64,000 bases of DNA from Loxodes magnus. Taxonomy: Eukaryota; Ciliophora; Karyorelictea; Loxodida; Loxodidae. Shown here in pieces: positions 7,642-55,856 of this stretch. The position numbers and the translations under genes are program-made. The stretch lies in contig CAMPDV010000362.1 in NCBI GenBank assembly GCA_946699065.1, positions 186,001 to 250,000 of the forward strand. The letters run 5' to 3'. Position 1 is the stretch's first letter. Each line of letters begins with the position of its first letter. The notes beneath the pieces were generated by a model, which made no database searches, had not been told where the DNA came from, and saw nothing but the letters and a program-made list of their open reading frames with translations.

Positions 7642-10600
7642 TCAAAGGTACTTTAGAATAATTATTTTGCATTGAAATAACTTCTAGATTGCTTAGGATT
7701 TTCTAAATTTGGTGGTTTATTATTAATTCTTTTTGAAGATTTGATTTTAACATTTAAACGAAAGATTTATGAAGAAGCTAAATATTTCTCCCAAAGTTTT
7801 GAGAGTGAATAAGTTTTAAATTTTTTTAAGAGCAGATTGAAATTATAAACCATCAATTTAAATTTTTATTTTCAAAGATATAAAATTAATTTTATGGGTT
7901 CTTATTTCAAAATTTTCCTCTAAATTAGAAAATTACTGATAAAGATTGAAGTCCAACTATAATTTGTTATCTTGACTAGAGTTTAATTATTCTTCTATTG
8001 TTTTTTGCTTCTAAGAATTGATATTATTTCGGTCTAAATTTAAAGAATTTTCATTACTCAAAGTTTAATCTTATATTTAATTTTCACTACCCATTGTCAC
8101 TTCATTTGGACAAACATCTTACTTTACGATGTTCAATACAGGTGATTTTCTCTTTGATCTTAGATTGGCTTCCTCTAAGTCTTTCTTGATATTATGCATG
8201 ATTTGACTATATTTAGCATTCTATTCTAAATCGTAATTTTAAATAAGCTTCTAAATCATTTTCTAAATAAAATCTTACTTTACTAGAACTTTTGTTTTTA
8301 AATCCTTTAGAATGCTAGAACTATAAGGAGTAATATTTAAGCATTGATTTTTGAGATAAAAAGCAAATTAAGCAAATAAGGAGAAAAGTTCCGTATGCCG
8401 CTCCTTGTATTGAATAAATTCTTTCGTCTAGATAGTTTTCATCATCACATCTATACTTCTAGTCTATAGTTAGCTTTGTGTGTAATATACAATTTTTGAA
8501 ATTTGAAGGAAATAAGTCTTCACTACCCAACATGTAAATACTTACCAATGAATGCAAGATTAAGCAGTAAGGCATCATCTTTAATGCCTTTTTATGAACG
8601 TTTATTTGAGAAAAGGATTTTCATCTGAAAAACGATTTCAGCAAAATTTTATCAGATAGATACATAAATAGTGAAGTTAAAAATGCACATAAGTTAAGAA
8701 TAGGAATCCCTGCTGAATATAGCTATACTGCGAATATAATACTAAGAATCTTAGCATAGTTAACTGAAATTATTAGCTGAGGCTCAATTTTAATAATAGC
8801 AGTTAATTTGCCCAAAAAGTTATTCTATTTTTGTATAATTTGTACTATTCTTTTCAAAGGTCATGTTATAAATAAATTTTATAATGCTGGGAAAAATATC
8901 GAGCCGAAGAGCATTACAGTGATTTAATATCCGATATCTAAAAACCACATTCGCTCAAAGTCGTCATAATTATTATGAACTATTTCTGAATTTTTTTATA
9001 TTCAATAGGGAATTTCCATATTTATAATAGTTTTCATCAGTCCAATATTAAAGAACTCTATGATAAAAGCACTTATCAAAAAGTCATTTATTTCCTGTTT
9101 ATTTTCTTATATTTTAAAGAATTTGAAGACAAATTTAAAGCTTTTAAACTGGATTATATTCACTAGCAAAATAACTAGCGAAGAAATAGCTTTGAAATAA
9201 GCCTTATCTTAATATCTATCGACATAATACTAGCATCATTTCCCTATTTCGTTATCCTCGAAAGCACCTTCTTGGAAAGAACACCAACAATAATAAGGAT
9301 CTGAATTTACTTAGTAGCTTTACTGAGCTTCTGGAAAAGTGAAAAAATAACTAAAATCTCTTTGAATTCATAACTATTGACAGTCTGATTAACTAGGTAT
9401 TGAATTGTATTTCTAATATGCTATTATTTAGAAAGCACAAACTGTTATAATGATTGCTATGTTCAACAAAAAAGCTAGTAGTGAAACTATAAATTTTTTT
9501 CTTCAAGAAACTTCCAGATTCTCATAGATTATATCTTAAGGTTCGATATTATCATTATTCTAGATTTAAAACTAATTAATTAAATTATCAAATTATACAT
9601 CCTTCTTAAAGCAGCGTTTTCATTACAAATGCTTACCAAAAAGAGTCTTGCTTCACTCTTTCTCGAAAATAATAAAAATGACATTCTCAATTAGTTCTTC
9701 ATATCTATCAGAATTATTCAAAGCTTATTAAATTTTAAGCTCAATATTTTACTTCTAAGTCTAAAGTTTTTCAATATTTTTGGTTTAGATGGTAGCTTAG
9801 TTTTATAAATCTAGGATTAGCTTAGTATATTTATGCTTCATTTAATAAAGTTAAATTAGATTATTAGTCTTTTTTATCACTATTATTTTATTGACTCTTC
9901 CAAATCTGTCTTCAATTATTTGCTTAATTTTTTCAGTATCTATTTTCTTTTTCTACATCAATTTAAGTTGTAAAGTAAAGCTACTAGCTATACTTTGCTT
10001 CTGTTTTCATTTTTTAATAGCTAGATGTATTCTTACATTATAATAGAGAATAAAAAGCAAAAGCACTGATTGATTGGCAATATCCACTCCTATAATGCTT
10101 ATTTTATAATCTTCGTTATAACTGAAGTACCAGTCTTCTTATTTATTTTATTTGCTACTAGGAGTATGTTGTAGATATTATGAATCATTATATTGATTTT
10201 TTTTAAAAATGAAAGTATCTTCTTCAACTCAGTAAACATAAGATCCTGTAGTATATAAATTTGCAATTGTAGCTCTATCTAAAATATTAGACTACTGCTC
10301 AACAAGCCAACCTCCCCACTTTCCACCTTTGAAGTTATTTACTAGTGAAATCGCACTAATGCCACTCATTATTAAAAAAGTTATGCTAATAAGTCTAAAA
10401 AAGTCTAAATAGAGCTCTTTTTCGAAAGTACTCTGGTCAAATTTTTTTAAACCATAAAGAAAAAATCTGTTGACAGAGTATTTCTTTCTTGTCATGATCT
10501 AATCTCCTAGTAGTTCTCTTTTCTAATTTTTTCTTTTTTTCGTTTCCAATTTTAAGATAGAAGGTGTATTTTTCTTTTTTATCTTATTAATTTTTCATAT

Positions 10601-11557
10601 CAAAAGGCATATTATTATTGCTACTAAATACAGTATAAATAGACATAAGCTTAATATCTCTGAGCTTGATATATATTTACGCTTTTCATATATATCTTTA
10701 TTAAAACCTTTTTAGATCTTAAAAGTTTATTGGAATTTTTCTTTAAGATAAAAATTCAACGATCCACAATCTCCATAATCTCAGTTACAGCCAGGATTAA
10801 AACATCCTCAGTGGCAATAAGTATCATTTAAAAAAGGAGCAAAGCAATTGCATGTATTTAAACAATCGCCTCCATCTCACTAGCAGTTAGGATTATTGCA
10901 ATCAATGTCACAAACTCCGTCTGATAAAAAATATCCTACTTTATAGGTGACGCACTCACATTATATTCCCCAACATTCATCATCATCCATTCCACAAACA
11001 GGATTGTTGCAAAATCAATCGCAGTGTCCATTTTTAGATGCAAAGTTGCAAGCAACTTAAGCTTAACAATTAGAAGGTTCTCAGCCAATACAATCGCCTT
11101 CATCATAATTACATTCTTCAAAATTACACTAAGGTTAGCAGAAACCGTTTCCAAGAAAAACATTTTCACAGTGAGGCTTGCATTTCTGACAATCTTATTG
11201 ATCATAATCACATTCTGGAACTTGGCAAACGCTTTAACATCTACCATCATTTATTCAAGTAACTGAGCATCCTTCACTACATTATTCATAGCAATCGCCG
11301 TCATCAAAATGACATTCAGTTGAGTTGCATTAAATATCACAATATCCATTACCCAACGAATAAAAAGGACAAAAGCTTCCACAAGTTCTACAAGCTCCTC
11401 CATCCACCATACATTCGTAATTAGCACACATCAACTAACACTTGTCATCGAAAAGGAGTGAATTATTACATCCACTTCTGCATTAACTCCGTACTTTTGC
11501 AATGAATAGATAAAAAATAAAGCAAACATATAACTTGATACACTTAATAGTTAACAT
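7642..11557 (-). CDS. LNR (Notch-repeat) plus OSCA/TMEM63-like channel membrane protein
   Basis: ATG at 11557 is followed by a signal peptide (residues 1-23). About 240 Cys-rich residues follow with Lin-12/Notch repeats: NGYCDIQCN..CHFDDGDC, VCDIDCNNPNCQWDGGDC, NWDYGDC. Several of their Trp codons are TGA. A first membrane helix lies near 10640. The remainder carries marks of the OSCA/CSC1/TMEM63 family: a cytosolic segment with FGRVNKIIVIKKTNNLIQLY (PHM7-like), the junction DIIYENLEVSWRKKFIVSL near residue 674 (family consensus DIIWENL), then many hydrophobic helices, including YSAGIPILNLCAFLTSLF. Known OSCA/TMEM63 proteins are mechanosensitive cation channels, so a surface-exposed LNR ectodomain on such a channel is the inference. 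At about 8341 the frame moves by one base while coding character continues (LNITPYSSSILKDL) to TGA at 7642: an indel, a sequence error or recoding. Confidence 0.8.
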
Positions 11558-20064: not shown

Positions 20065-20850
20065 TTGACTGGACATTCGAGTTAAGTTAATTCGGTAGTC
20101 ATATCTAGTGATCAGAAATGAAATTAATTGTATCAGGAAGTGGAGATTGAGCAATAAAGATTTGGGATTTCCACACTGGAAGTTGTAACAAAACTTTGAC
20201 TGGACATATGTTGTAAGTCTAATCGGTAGCAATAACAAGTGGCATGAAATGAATTGTATCAGGCAGTGGAGATAAAACGATAAAGATATGGGATTTCCAG
20301 ACTGGAAGCTGTATGAGAACTTTGACTGAACATACAAGTTATATACTCTCACTAGCTATATCCACTGACCAGAAATTAATAGTTTCTGGTTCAGATTATC
20401 CTGAAAATTCGATAAATATCTGGGATTTCCAGATTGGTCAGTTTGCTAAAACTCTTTCTGGGCATTTAGGTTCAATTTGATCAATAATAATATCATTGAA
20501 TAATAAATATATAATATCAGATTCAGGTGATAAATCAATTAGAGTATGGGACTTTCAAAATAGATAATGTATTCGAAAATTAACTGGCCACACAAATGCT
20601 GTACGTAGCATTCGACTTAGTAATGATTCTAGTGTTATATTTTCTGGATCTTTTGATAATACAATCAAGATATGGAATTTCTCAACAGGTGAATGTATAT
20701 AGACTCTCTAAGGGCATTCATATGGAATATTATATATAGAATTAAGTAGAGACAATAATTGAATAGTACCTGGAGCAAATGACAAAACTGTTAGAAAGTG
20801 GAGGATTGCAAATTGAGAGTAGGCAAATACATTTAAGACTTAAAAATTTA
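20065..20850 (+). pseudogene. WD40-repeat gene fragment, 5' truncated
   Basis: About seven WD40 repeats run from LTGHSSQVNSVVISSDQ to NDKTVRKWRIANWEQ. Typical marks are GH, SGS.D..IKIWDF and TG-C. Several Trp codons are TGA (MKWIVSGSGD, GDWAIKIWDF, NNWIV). The first repeat contains a 2- or 5-base insertion near 20145 that breaks the frame, and there is no N-terminal domain: sequence before 20065 belongs to something else. It is closely related to the WD40 half of the kinase gene at 23.1-25.2 kb and to the fragment at 26.9 kb, so it is probably a truncated duplicate. WD40 propellers act as protein-interaction platforms. Confidence 0.75.
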
Positions 20851-23092: not shown

Positions 23093-25160
<2,068 letters not shown>

Positions 25161-35610: not shown

Positions 35611-35997
35611 TTAAACGTAAAAAACTTATTAAAAGATTGTATGTCATATATTTAGTGAAATTTATAATCTAAATTCCTTTAGTTTTCAATTAGTATATTT
35701 AAAGATGAGCTAACAAATATAAACGATTTATTTATTAGCTTAATTTAAAATATTCTTAAAAGCATTTATTAACAAATTTATTTATATACTAGCTAATTAA
35801 GAAATTAAGAAAAGCTTATTAGATATTTTAAAGAAAAGATGAAAAAGTATGTAAAAATTATAATATAAAATGAATGTAATAAGTAGCTAATAATTATAAG
35901 AGAAATAAATTATGATAAGGATAAAAGGAAATACTAGCAACATAATTTGTTTATTTTAAAATATTTATTTGTTTCCTCACTTTTTAGTTTATTATAA

Positions 35998-37808
35998 ATG
36001 GAATGGAGTCAGTAGAACCAAAACTTACTCTGTTGTAAATGTAGCAGGATATAAGCATACTAGTAAGAAGGAGAGAATAATTTTTTTTGTGTAGAAAACT
36101 ATTAAATAGAAAGCTAAAGGAAAGAATATTAAGAGCAAATAATTTGTCAGGAATGTTAACTAAATTAGCTAGCTGGTAAAAATATGTAAGCTTTAAATCT
36201 GAAATAACTAGAAATTAATATTTAAGTAAGTGCGAATTTAAATGAAAAAGCAAAAAATGAAAAGTATAATAGGATATGGAAAAATAGAAATATTTTAGAC
36301 GTAATAATAAAATTCCTAAAAAATAGAGAAATATGCAATCTACAGAAAACTGACAAATACTTTTATTAGTTTAAATTCAGTTTTAAAGCTTTATCTATAC
36401 AAAAATATAGAGAAAAAGATGCGAAATATATAAAAAATAAAATAAACTTAGTTTTAAGATAATTAACTCATTCATATGTAAAGAGCTTAATGATTGAGGC
36501 ATAAGATTTATCTTATAATATATGCTCATAATTTCTAAATAAATTAAATGATGTATTTATACTAAAAGACTAAAGTAGTTAATATAGAAATTAAAATATG
36601 ATAGAAGAACTTGATTTATGAAATTGGCCTATAAAGAAAGTAAATTTACCCGATTTTTCTCTATGCAAAAGCTTAAAATAGTTGTTCCTTTTATTTATCG
36701 ACTTAGAAGATTAAAATTTATCCTTCCTAGAAAATTTAACAAGTTTAGAAAGCCTAGAAATATATTCCTTAGATAATATAACAGGTTAGTTTTTATTAGA
36801 TTATTGCATAAATAATAAATTTAAAGAATTGTAAATTTATAGCAATACAATGAATAGTGGCCTTATAACACAATATCTGCAACTAAAAGGAAATTAGATT
36901 GAGAATATTAATATAAATGATAATGATTAAATTCATTTATATATCCATTTATGTCCTAATTTAAAATAGTTAAAGCTTATTAATCCTTAAAATTTATAAG
37001 ATTCTCTCCTAAATAAAATAAACACTAGAAAATTAAAAAATTTGGACTTTGAAGAAGTTTAGTTCTCATCTTAAGCTTTTTATAACTTTTTCTCTTTTTA
37101 ATTCCAAAGTCTTCAATATGTTAGATTAAATGATTGTAAGCATTTCGATTAAATAAACTTAGAGTTATTGCTATAAAGCTCCCCTAATTTAGAGAAAATA
37201 GATCTAGCAAATTTGGATTAATTGTAAAAGGAAGATTATAAATTAATAGGATTGTATGGTTAAAATTTAAAAACAATAATGTTACGATCAAGTAACGAAG
37301 ATTTGGACGAAGAATTGTAAATAATATTCTAAAACTGTAGAAAATGTACTCATTTATGACTTAAAGTAAAATAAATTAAAAAAGAAACTTTAGTAATTAT
37401 TAGAGAAAATTGCCAATCTTTATAAAGTTTTCATTTATCTGATTGCTAAGTTAATGGAGAAAACTGAATACAAGAAATTACTTAAATATAGAGATTAAAT
37501 AGATTAAGTCTTAATAACTGCTAAATATTAAATACTGATGTAATTGAGATTATAAAAACTAAACAAAGATTAACATTTCTGAGCTTGTAAGAAAATAAAA
37601 AAATAACATAGGAGCTTTTCCTATTTAAGATGAGAATGGTAATAATTTTCCATTATACACTAGTTTAAAAGAGTTATATCTTCGAGATTGCATTCTTATA
37701 TAAAAATAATAATTATTATACTTAAAGTAGAAATTTAGTAAAATTAAAATAATTTTAAATTGGTGCACTAGGAGTCAAGAGTAGGATAATGTTGATTTTG
37801 ATTTTTGA
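35998..37808 (+). CDS. F-box / LRR protein, copy 4 (one apparent frameshift)
   Basis: ATG at 35998. The N-terminus has paired cysteines absent from the other copies (LLCCKCSR, FFCVEN, IICQECQ). Then come an F-box-like segment (ILDVIIKFLKNREICNLQ near residue 105-125) and LRRs (for example PNLKQLKLINPQNLQ; CRKCTHLWLKVKQIKKETL). The body aligns with copies 1 and 2. Near 37612, right after an A7 run, one base is missing compared with ITQEAFP of copy 2. The downstream frame continues GAFPIQDENGNNFPLY and ends at TGA 37806-37808, again matching the paralogs' C-termini. Either a very recent lesion or a homopolymer error. Confidence 0.75.
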
Positions 37809-40983: not shown

Positions 40984-41067
40984 GCATGTGTGGCCGAGCG
41001 GTCCAAGGCGCTAGACTCAAGTTCTAGTGGGAGAAATCCCGCGTGAGTTCAAATCTCACCGCATGCA
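40984..41067 (+). tRNA. tRNA-Leu (anticodon CAA)
   Basis: An 84-nt cloverleaf: acceptor stem GCATGTG/CGCATGC (one T-G pair) with discriminator A, D-arm TGGCCGAGCGGTCCAAGGCG, anticodon stem CTAGA/TCTAG around loop CTCAAGT (anticodon CAA, reads UUG), a long type-II variable arm (GGGAGAAATCCC) and T-arm TGAGTTCAAATCTCA. Internal A and B boxes are intact and no intron is present. It is followed by TTTTAC rather than a long T run. Confidence 0.97.
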
Positions 41068-53644: not shown

Positions 53645-54940
53645 TTGCATCAACATCTTACTCCTCAGTATTCCCTTAAAGGCTTTTCCTTTTACCGATG
53701 GAGAAGAGTCAGGATCTGTAATCTTTTTTATTTGAATTTACATTTGTCTTTATGCAAGTTTCCTTGCTTTCTTTACTTCAATTTTCTTTTGCTTTCTTTC
53801 CATTTTTTCTATATTATTATTATATTATTTATTTATTACTTATATATTTACTATTCAAATTAACAAAAATATTAAGTGAGTTTAGGGAAATTAATTGTTA
53901 GAATGGAAAATTAGTTAATACAAAAAATAAGAAAATAAGCTAGTTTATTTAAGTTAAATTCATACAAGTTTTATAACTGTAGAAGAAGATTAATGAAATA
54001 AGACAGATAAAAGATAAAAGAAAAGAATGGAGTAATTGAAGAAATTTCCTTTAAATTATAATAACTAAGCATATTTAATTATATTAAAAGATATTAAAAT
54101 TTTCCTTACTAAAAGGCATCAATAATAAAATTGAAAAATCAAAAGTTAAAGTTATTTTTTTAAAGTTAGGTTTTGTAATAATTTAAATTAAAATAACAAC
54201 CACTAATAAATTTTGCTTAAGCAAATATGGGATTTCAAAATAATTGTAGAGAGTGATTGTATGAGATGTATTTACTAAGTTTATTAGATAGAAATTAAAT
54301 ATTTTCTAATAAGGAGGGTATAAAAATAAGATATATCAATAAGTAATTGATTAAATAAAGTTTTAGTAATAAGAAGATAATAAGTAATTACTAGAGGGCT
54401 GTTCTATTTTATCATTTAAAATAGTAACTTAAAACGTAATAAGTAATAACTTGGCTATAGGATTAAAGAAAATACAAAAGAAACTAATTATAAAAAGTTA
54501 AAAAAGAAGATAAATGCTTCTTTTATAAAGCTTAAATATGAATACTTAAGACTAAATTTAAGGTTAATCAGTTATAAAGATTTTTGCAATATAAATCAGT
54601 GATAGTATTCTAAGCTATATGATTAATTTCATTTATAAGATCAACTAAATGAAAATATTATGAGCTTATTAGATTATCATTTTTTGTAGTCATATTGCAA
54701 TAAAAATTTAGTTAGTGAAATAACTTAAAGATATAATCTACTTAAATCTTCATTGCTTTTAAAATACTTTTAATCATCCAAATTTATCTTTCACATTTTA
54801 AAAAGTTCATAGGAAATGTATATAAAAAGTGAAAGAGATATGAATAAACATCAAGTGTCCATTAAAATAGAAGAATTTAAGGAGTATCTTTATAATAAAT
54901 GTATTTCTTATTTCTTTTTTGATGCTAATAGATTTGATTT
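53645..54940. other. AT-rich spacer
   Basis: About 1.3 kb of AT-rich DNA upstream of the intact ORF1 element. The element's 5' boundary must lie in its last few hundred bases but cannot be placed. No gene recognised. Confidence 0.4.
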
Positions 54941-54944
54941 AAAA

Positions 54945-55856
54945 ATGGTTGAAGGTTTCAACTCTGGCTTCTATACCACCTCTTCCTAAGCCAAAAAGGA
55001 AGGGAGAAAGCAAGAAGCCAAGTCTTAACAATCTTAACAATCTTCTCTATCACAACCTTAACCAACACTGAACTAACAATCTGGAATCTAACAAAACGAA
55101 CAAAAGCCAACCTTGAAGAATATACACACGGAAACTCCAACCTCAAGCGAGAAACCGAGGAAACAGATGAAATCTGTTCTCCACCAGGAGGTATCAGAGT
55201 TCAACCCTTCTGGCCAGATGAGCATGCAGTAGCTCATCAAAGTGGTACTGAACCTCTAGGAAGAGGTCAAGAGATTTAAGAAGAACAATGATATGCTGAT
55301 GGCAAAGCTAGACCTAGCAGAAGGAATTGAGTCAAGACTTATGTCCTAGGAAAGAGATCTTAATGCCTTTTGGAATATCTCACAAAGTCAGACTAGCAAA
55401 TCCTAAAATTAGCTTTAGAAACAGACTGAATTGGATAACAGACTCGGAAAAGTAGAAGAGAAATTGTAAAATTTTAAGAAAGAATAAAGCGAAACTGGAG
55501 CTATACAAATGGAAATCGAAGCCTAGAAAGAGCAAACAAATCAAGGAAACTAATTCAAAATAAAAAAGAAATGTTTCTGCTGTGGAAGTGTAAGACATTT
55601 TTATCAGAAGTGTTAGAAATTCTAATAGAAATAAAGAAACTATTGGATAAAAGAACAACAAAAGAAGAAAAAAGAAGAAGCAAGAATGAAAAGAATGTAT
55701 TGCAACCTGAATGGTTCAATATACAAGATCAAGATGGAACCATATCAAGTAAAAGGAAGGGAAACCTGGAAAAACCCAAGTTCCCAATCTCGCTAAAATT
55801 GGACGTCCCAAACATTTATATTTAACAGCAGGGACCATGAACTACTGTCCTCCTGA
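54945..55856 (+). CDS. Retroelement ORF1 protein, intact (coiled coil + CCHC)
   Basis: Uninterrupted 303-residue frame from ATG 54945 to TGA 55854-55856, with Gln codons TAA/TAG inside. Residues 1-90 are Ser/Gln/Pro rich. About 95-205 is coiled coil (LQEEVKRFKKNNDMLMAKL; LDNRLGKVEEKLQNFKKEQ). Residues 210-223 form a zinc knuckle CFCCGSVRHFYQKC (CX2CX4HX4C), followed by a basic C-terminus with two Trp. This layout is that of LINE ORF1 / gag-type nucleic-acid chaperones that coat element RNA. It is less AT-rich than surrounding DNA. It is followed within 60 bp by GGTTGGAAATCCCT and an ATTATTATTATTATAG tail with no RT frame in between: the element carries ORF1 alone. Confidence 0.75.

Follow-up and report, generated by a model that had tools for sequence, protein, structure and literature searches.

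An OSCA/TMEM63-family gene of Loxodes magnus predicted to carry seven LNR modules ahead of its first channel helix

We describe a gene on the minus strand of a 64,000-nucleotide stretch of the Loxodes magnus genome (contig CAMPDV010000362.1, positions 186,001 to 250,000; hereafter the window, whose numbering is used throughout). Its predicted product is an OSCA/TMEM63-family protein (CSC1-like, with 11 transmembrane (TM) helices) in which a signal peptide and seven LNR modules precede the first helix, TM0. Sequence comparison and structure modelling support this assignment: the placement in OSCA/TMEM63 follows from a profile of paralogues searched against PDB, from profile-profile alignment by hhalign, from the predicted fold, and from relatives that score above the Pfam cut-offs, two of them with LNRs in the same frame. 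A sequence-only reading of the window had proposed just such a fusion, and its identification of the channel stands. Judged by sequence, genes of this LNR-channel type number dozens in the genome, and the one in the window belongs to a large family of paralogues.

Family placement and layout of the channel half

Family membership was assessed with a sequence profile built from 17 channel halves stripped of their LNRs. Searched against PDB, this profile retrieved 16 sequences at E ≤ 0.001, all of them OSCA/TMEM63 (best 3e-6), and the family made up 18 of the 20 at E ≤ 10, the others being TMH4C4 (0.014) and FAM155A (1.2). By hhalign, the family aligns to a canonical OSCA from the same genome at E 2.3e-13; P0001 matches L050, a distant LNR-less locus that itself passes both the RSN1_7TM and PHM7_cyt cut-offs, at E 1.7e-46. 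Among 20 family members searched against Pfam at E ≤ 1, RSN1_7TM was found in five, PHM7_cyt in three, RSN1_TM in one and RRM_1 in three. Structure prediction points the same way, with OSCA/TMEM63 chains occupying Foldseek ranks 1–32 for the channel model.

The model predicts the 11 helices TM0–TM10 in the family fold. TM0 (10589–10657, about residues 301–323), the most hydrophobic segment of the protein, had been read from sequence as a single-pass helix; it is better seen as the first helix of the channel, with ten more following by hydropathy and model. From residue 297, in a region of pLDDT (predicted local distance difference test score) ∼45–60, the model can be superposed on OSCA3.1 starting at chain residue 4. 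A cytosolic linker (10430–10588, residues 324–376), the least constrained part of the protein, leads to TM1 (10337–10393, residues 389–407) and TM2 (10016–10102, residues 486–514), both placed by hydropathy and model. Between TM2 and TM3 lies the IL2 cytosolic domain (9506–10006, residues 518–684), the PHM7_cyt counterpart, whose position was set by the model and an OSCA1.1 alignment. It is modelled as an RRM-like fold with a helical hairpin, in the strand (E) and helix (H) order E-H-E-H-H-E-H-H-E over residues 528–666; this order and the Pfam matches of relatives agree with OSCA/TMEM63 and bear out the PHM7-like segment noted earlier. The junction before TM3 likewise survives closer inspection: EPQDIIYENLE (9512–9544, residues 672–682) aligns to EPRDIYWPNLAI of OSCA1.1. 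TM3–TM10 (8357–9493, residues 689–1067) were delimited by hydropathy, the model, and Foldseek and VIA comparison. They include a YYCWC motif between TM3 and TM4 (9281–9295, residues 755–759), on the outer side by topology, of which Y755, C757, W758 and C759 are invariant in 20 of 20 aligned rows, and a short outer TM9–TM10 loop (8414–8521, residues 1013–1048).

Several results weigh against this placement. Neither the window protein nor three channel pieces cut from it match PF02714, PF14703 or PF13967 at E ≤ 10, so that a profile check of the translated protein taken by itself recovers the LNR family (PF00066) and neither PF02714 nor PF14703; a protein search with residues 640–1090 alone drew no match at E ≤ 10 from 2,067 candidates. 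The PDB profile matches each add up two or three weak segments, none of which passes singly for TMEM63B, and structural alignments to OSCA/TMEM63 have 9–16% identity, no near relative having a solved structure. The model of the whole protein is of moderate quality (mean pLDDT 57.8, predicted TM-score 0.54), falling to pLDDT ∼22–45 in the LNR part and ∼45–60 in TM0. For RSN1_7TM, one LNR-plus-channel locus, L044 on contig C39, scored 29.7 bits when the genome was searched and 26.1 bits as a whole protein, under the cut-off of 28.7.

Moreover, some TMEM16 chains rank equal to OSCA rows in VIA, and scramblases are found among the TMEM16 proteins that share the fold. The channel half might then scramble lipids in the manner of TMEM16, or be a relic that does not conduct, with the LNRs as a plain surface coat. 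TMEM16 chains do come next in Foldseek and trail the top VIA match by no more than ∼3 Z units, and the TM0–TM1 linker evolves fast; but the IL2 domain in its OSCA place, the presence of TM0 and the sequence profiles all point to OSCA/TMEM63, and the channel is under purifying selection in close paralogues. We regard the scramblase or relic as very improbable.

The LNR ectodomain

The protein begins with a putative signal peptide (11486–11557, residues 1–24, hydrophobic over residues 1–19); an initial Met with a hydrophobic run recurs in the paralogues. The seven modules follow, each located by Pfam and by motif count: LNR1 (11390–11482, residues 26–56), LNR2 (11291–11383, residues 59–89), LNR3 (11189–11281, residues 93–123), LNR4 (11090–11182, residues 126–156), LNR5 (10973–11068, residues 164–195), LNR6 (10862–10960, residues 200–232) and LNR7 (10766–10852, residues 236–264). 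Pfam LNR (PF00066) scores 101.4 bits against a cut-off of 21.2, in seven stretches (E 3.4e-29), and a motif count of the window protein also gives seven; the sequence-only reading was thus right about the type of module and short in its count of about five. In close paralogues every LNR cysteine is invariant, as are several of the acidic positions.

Sequence search of PDB retrieved the Notch1 NRR at E 5.2e-6 and also GNPTAB (E 6.9e-4), the latter matching in the LNR part only. The ectodomain-only model is poor (mean pLDDT 51.3); its Foldseek ranks 1–14 are all Notch NRR, at E 3.9e-4 to 4.8e-3 and with low TM-scores of 0.11–0.18. The resemblance to Notch had suggested modules guarding a force-sensitive cleavage site, a parallel that found no support. 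In the window protein, LNR is the sole Pfam family over cut-off, and HD/NOD, EGF and ankyrin were not found; LNR7 is separated from TM0 by ∼36 residues, and because Pfam finds no HD cleavage module between them, a Notch-type proteolytic switch is unlikely. Rows for Coa1 and GAPT, in the window protein and the channel pieces, fell below cut-off and were taken as chance.

Gene frame, genetic code and introns

One open frame runs from the ATG at 11557 to about 8279 if TAA and TAG are read as Gln and TGA as Trp, and it joins all of the parts that the sequence-only reading had strung together. This exon 1 (8279–11557; 1093 codons spanning the signal peptide, seven LNRs and TM0–TM10) is co-linear in paralogues. 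To check the reading of TGA, we compared 19 aligned paralogues at every in-frame TGA codon as far as residue 1078, 17 in all. At nine of these positions most paralogues have Trp, encoded by TGA or TGG; Trp is present at 14 and absent at three (159, 635 and 685). Residue 227 is Trp in all 19 paralogues (18 TGA, one TGG), and residues 443, 730 and 852 are Trp in 18 of 19, with both codons occurring.

The continuous frame does not extend to 7642, as had been supposed, but ends at a putative 16-nt intron (8263–8278, GTAAGATTTTATTTAG, GT..AG) that has a counterpart in paralogues; its removal restores the frame into a predicted exon 2 (7937–8262) encoding a cytosolic tail with a motif conserved in paralogues. 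A frame-restoring GT..AG stretch of 16 or 17 nt follows TM10 in 25 of 27 loci, the window gene included, a few loci offering more than one candidate. As for the other two, L034 reads through this region in an unchanged frame, and in L030 the tail pattern was not matched in this survey of the 27 loci. A second, tentative intron (7920–7936, 17 nt, GT..AG) would lead to a TGA stop at 7907–7909 and a protein of 1205 aa, whose end resembles that of some paralogues by eye; without it the frame would stop at 7642–7644. Tentatively, intron 2 and the stop at 7907–7909 fit better, and 7642 probably lies past the gene. PMC11441545 gives UGA in L. magnus as Trp or the sole stop, and macronuclear introns with a mode of 17 bp and almost none below 16; the code and the 16–17-nt introns of the window gene agree with these published features.

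Paralogues and selection

A genome search with the channel half yielded at least 62 matches with E ≤ 1, a total in which fragments of a single gene are sometimes counted separately; as only 58 of 477 first-look candidates were scored, such counts are lower bounds. A single frame holds both the LNRs and the channel in 27 of the 30 close loci (L009–L038, L009 being the window gene), the other 26 one-frame loci having 49–54% identity to the window protein. In L011 and L037 the first LNRs are in another frame, and in L035 all of them are. LNRs stand in the channel frame also at greater distance, in 11 of the 12 loci examined (L039–L049, with 27–32% identity in the channel; the stretch covering L049 lacks its start and shows the last LNRs only), the twelfth, L050, having no LNRs. 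The 27 close loci collapse to 17 groups at 98% and six at 90% nucleotide identity, so that alleles or recent copies, some of them near-identical, inflate the locus count. That two adjacent genes have been read as one is hardly credible: 38 of the 42 family loci, the window gene included, keep both parts in a single frame, and the second arrangement described below joins LNRs and channel in one frame again.

Ratios of nonsynonymous to synonymous substitution rates (dN/dS) were taken from pairs with 0.03 < dS < 1.2, near-identical and saturated pairs being dropped, which left 268 of 351 pairs for the LNR part, 246 for TM0 plus linker, and 268 for the channel. The medians in close paralogues are 0.21, 0.52 and 0.23, respectively. 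Values of ∼0.2 indicate that both halves are kept by selection in the young paralogues; the window gene adds little or nothing to this, since its printed pairs, with L010, L015 and L034, have dS above 1.2 throughout (saturated).

These figures bear on whether the LNR array is the head of a chemo- or contact receptor, in which case the proteins would be ligand-gated or adhesion-coupled channels, their numbers a receptor-like expansion, and tension secondary. The many paralogues, the placement of LNR arrays at two channel positions and the wide use of LNRs in this genome all suit such a head. Yet elevated dN/dS in the LNR part was sought in the close paralogues and not seen: that part is constrained like the channel, at least as whole-part averages, and its invariant cysteines and several invariant acidic residues are unlike a diversifying ligand-binding head. 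We consider the ligand receptor possible, if rather unlikely.

A second LNR arrangement, and LNR-less relatives

Two loci on contig C61, L053 and L054, place LNRs elsewhere in the channel. In the stretches read, which begin after TM3, one frame runs through TM9, then through six or more LNR modules in a row, and on into a hydrophobic segment taken as TM10. Pfam scores for L053 and L054, all over cut-off, are 134.1 and 136.0 bits for LNR and 38.8 and 34.3 bits for RSN1_7TM. A third C61 locus, L006, has the same TM9–LNR–TM10 order with frame breaks. The TM9–TM10 loop, short in the window protein, would face outward in the OSCA layout, counting from the extracellular N-terminus given in PMC6235563. 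By sequence, then, LNRs occupy two outer sites of an OSCA-type fold, the N-terminal head and the TM9–TM10 loop.

Three OSCA-like loci (L050, L051 and L052) have no LNR match and, in the translations examined, no hydrophobic segment before TM1. A search for further OSCA-like loci gave 574 first-look candidates, of which 56 were scored, LNR loci among them; many rows resemble L051 (contig C481), the sole one of these examined. Outside this genome, the channel profile matched a single protein, P0002 from a public contig (E 4.2e-120), among the 7,995 candidates sharing most words that were scored; it passes the RSN1_7TM and PHM7_cyt cut-offs, with no LNR match and no TM0 seen. Of 3,330 candidates in a search with the full-length alignment, three reached E ≤ 0.001, all of them proteins with LNRs and no OSCA match; this candidate set may contain few ciliates and cannot show absence of the fusion elsewhere.

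In an unrooted tree of 27 rows, from which the C61 loci were left out, canonical OSCA stands separate (100/100), and a single clade (100/100) takes in the LNR-bearing rows together with the four that lack TM0. The latter, L050, L051, L052 and P0002, group together (97/99) among LNR rows (91/97). An addition of LNRs with their own helix onto a TM0-less channel was not confirmed in this tree, where the TM0-less rows nest among LNR rows; the LNR label needs two changes, and gain and loss of the LNR–TM0 part are both compatible with it.

Proposed mechanism

We propose, at a probability of about 0.55, that the protein is a tension-gated cation channel tuned or tethered by an outer or luminal LNR array, and hence a sensor tuned mechanically, or mechanically and by Ca2+. 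By analogy with OSCA/TMEM63, described in PMC6235563 as opened by membrane tension, it would form a dimeric cation channel that opens under such tension. The array would lie on the outer or vesicle-lumen face, stabilised by disulfides and probably by Ca2+, and might bind surface coat, cilium-associated or matrix material. Pull on this tether, or the outer Ca2+ level, could be coupled through the short LNR7–TM0 stalk to TM0 and so bias channel opening, making the protein a sensor rather than a Notch-like cleaved receptor. One observation tells against a force sensor: LNR modules are very abundant genome-wide (10,515 first-look candidates, of which 150 were scored, giving 147 rows, most on contigs absent from the channel searches). 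Because LNRs are so widely used, finding them in a protein does not by itself imply that it senses force.

The membrane in question could also be internal (lysosome-like, contractile vacuole, alveolar sac or Müller vesicle), with luminal LNRs and a role as a sensor of organelle tension or Ca2+. A mechanosensory channel function in lysosomes is reported for Drosophila TMEM63 and mouse TMEM63A (PMC10940159), and a signal peptide with luminal LNRs is compatible with any secretory membrane; we judge an organellar site unlikely. The host genus adds a particular candidate role. Laser ablation of the statolith organelle abolishes gravitaxis in L. striatus (PMC5460273, section 5), and neither that section nor the available text of PMC10954788 names a channel for the Loxodes gravity organelle. 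LNR-OSCA proteins may be listed as putative candidates for gravity sensing in Loxodes. A bolder scheme, in which they are tethered force channels with a Ca-stiffened LNR chain as gating spring, a design reached twice and with at least one being the Müller vesicle transducer, is a speculation to which we attach little likelihood.

Other features of the window

A tRNA-Leu(CAA) gene (40984–41067, plus strand) is the only element of the window that reaches an Rfam gathering score. On the minus strand, 422–2017 encodes a protein with an LRR match at the cut-off (27 bits) and an F-box-like match below it (21.3 against 24.3), which the product of an open reading frame at 35839–36621, itself without a Pfam match, resembles by eye. 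Tandem repeats of ∼126 bp occupy 20120–20380 and 23214–23770, with a consensus readable as WD-repeat-like (e.g. SGSGDKTIKIWDF). On the plus strand, an open reading frame at 54660–55856 has a CCHC zinc-knuckle-like stretch, CFCCGSVRHFYQKC, perhaps of a retroelement gag, with no such Pfam match.

Comparison with known systems

The nearest known proteins are OSCA1.1, OSCA1.2, OSCA3.1 and TMEM63A/B/C, with which the window protein shares the TM0–TM10 layout, the IL2 domain between TM2 and TM3, an EPxDIIxENL-type stretch and a weakly scored DKLTIaNL-type stretch. It departs from them in its signal peptide and seven LNRs before TM0, and the Loxodes family in its invariant YYCWC stretch between TM3 and TM4; OSCA1.2, by the account in PMC6235563, has no structured outer domain besides short linkers. 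TMEM16 (anoctamin) proteins share the TM1–TM10 fold and rank after OSCA/TMEM63 in Foldseek; TMC also shares this fold. TMEM16 has no TM0, and its intracellular domain comes mainly from the termini rather than from IL2 (PMC6235563). The LNR-less OSCA-like L050, L051, L052 and P0002 belong to the same clade as the LNR-channel proteins, differing in having neither LNR nor TM0.

With the Notch NRR (LNR-HD) the common ground is the LNR modules with their six-cysteine and acidic pattern. Notch is single-pass, whereas the window protein has seven LNRs, a multipass channel and the ∼36-residue LNR7–TM0 spacing, with no HD/NOD, EGF or ankyrin part by Pfam. GNPTAB and the pappalysins, which are enzymes, also have LNR modules; the remainder is unrelated and the matches are confined to the LNR part. 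Long LNR arrays occur too in the multi-LNR membrane proteins P0003 (from the diatom Chaetoceros debilis), P0004 and P0005, which show no OSCA domain at E ≤ 1. An LNR-OSCA/TMEM63 fusion was not found in the literature covered, which included the available text of PMC2770060 on LNR evolution and left subscription journals mostly uncovered. The LNR-channel genes are testable candidates for force or chemical sensors, and a fold with a disulfide-rich module mounted outside at two places invites a direct test of whether that fold responds as well to pull on a tether or to gating by Ca2+ from outside.
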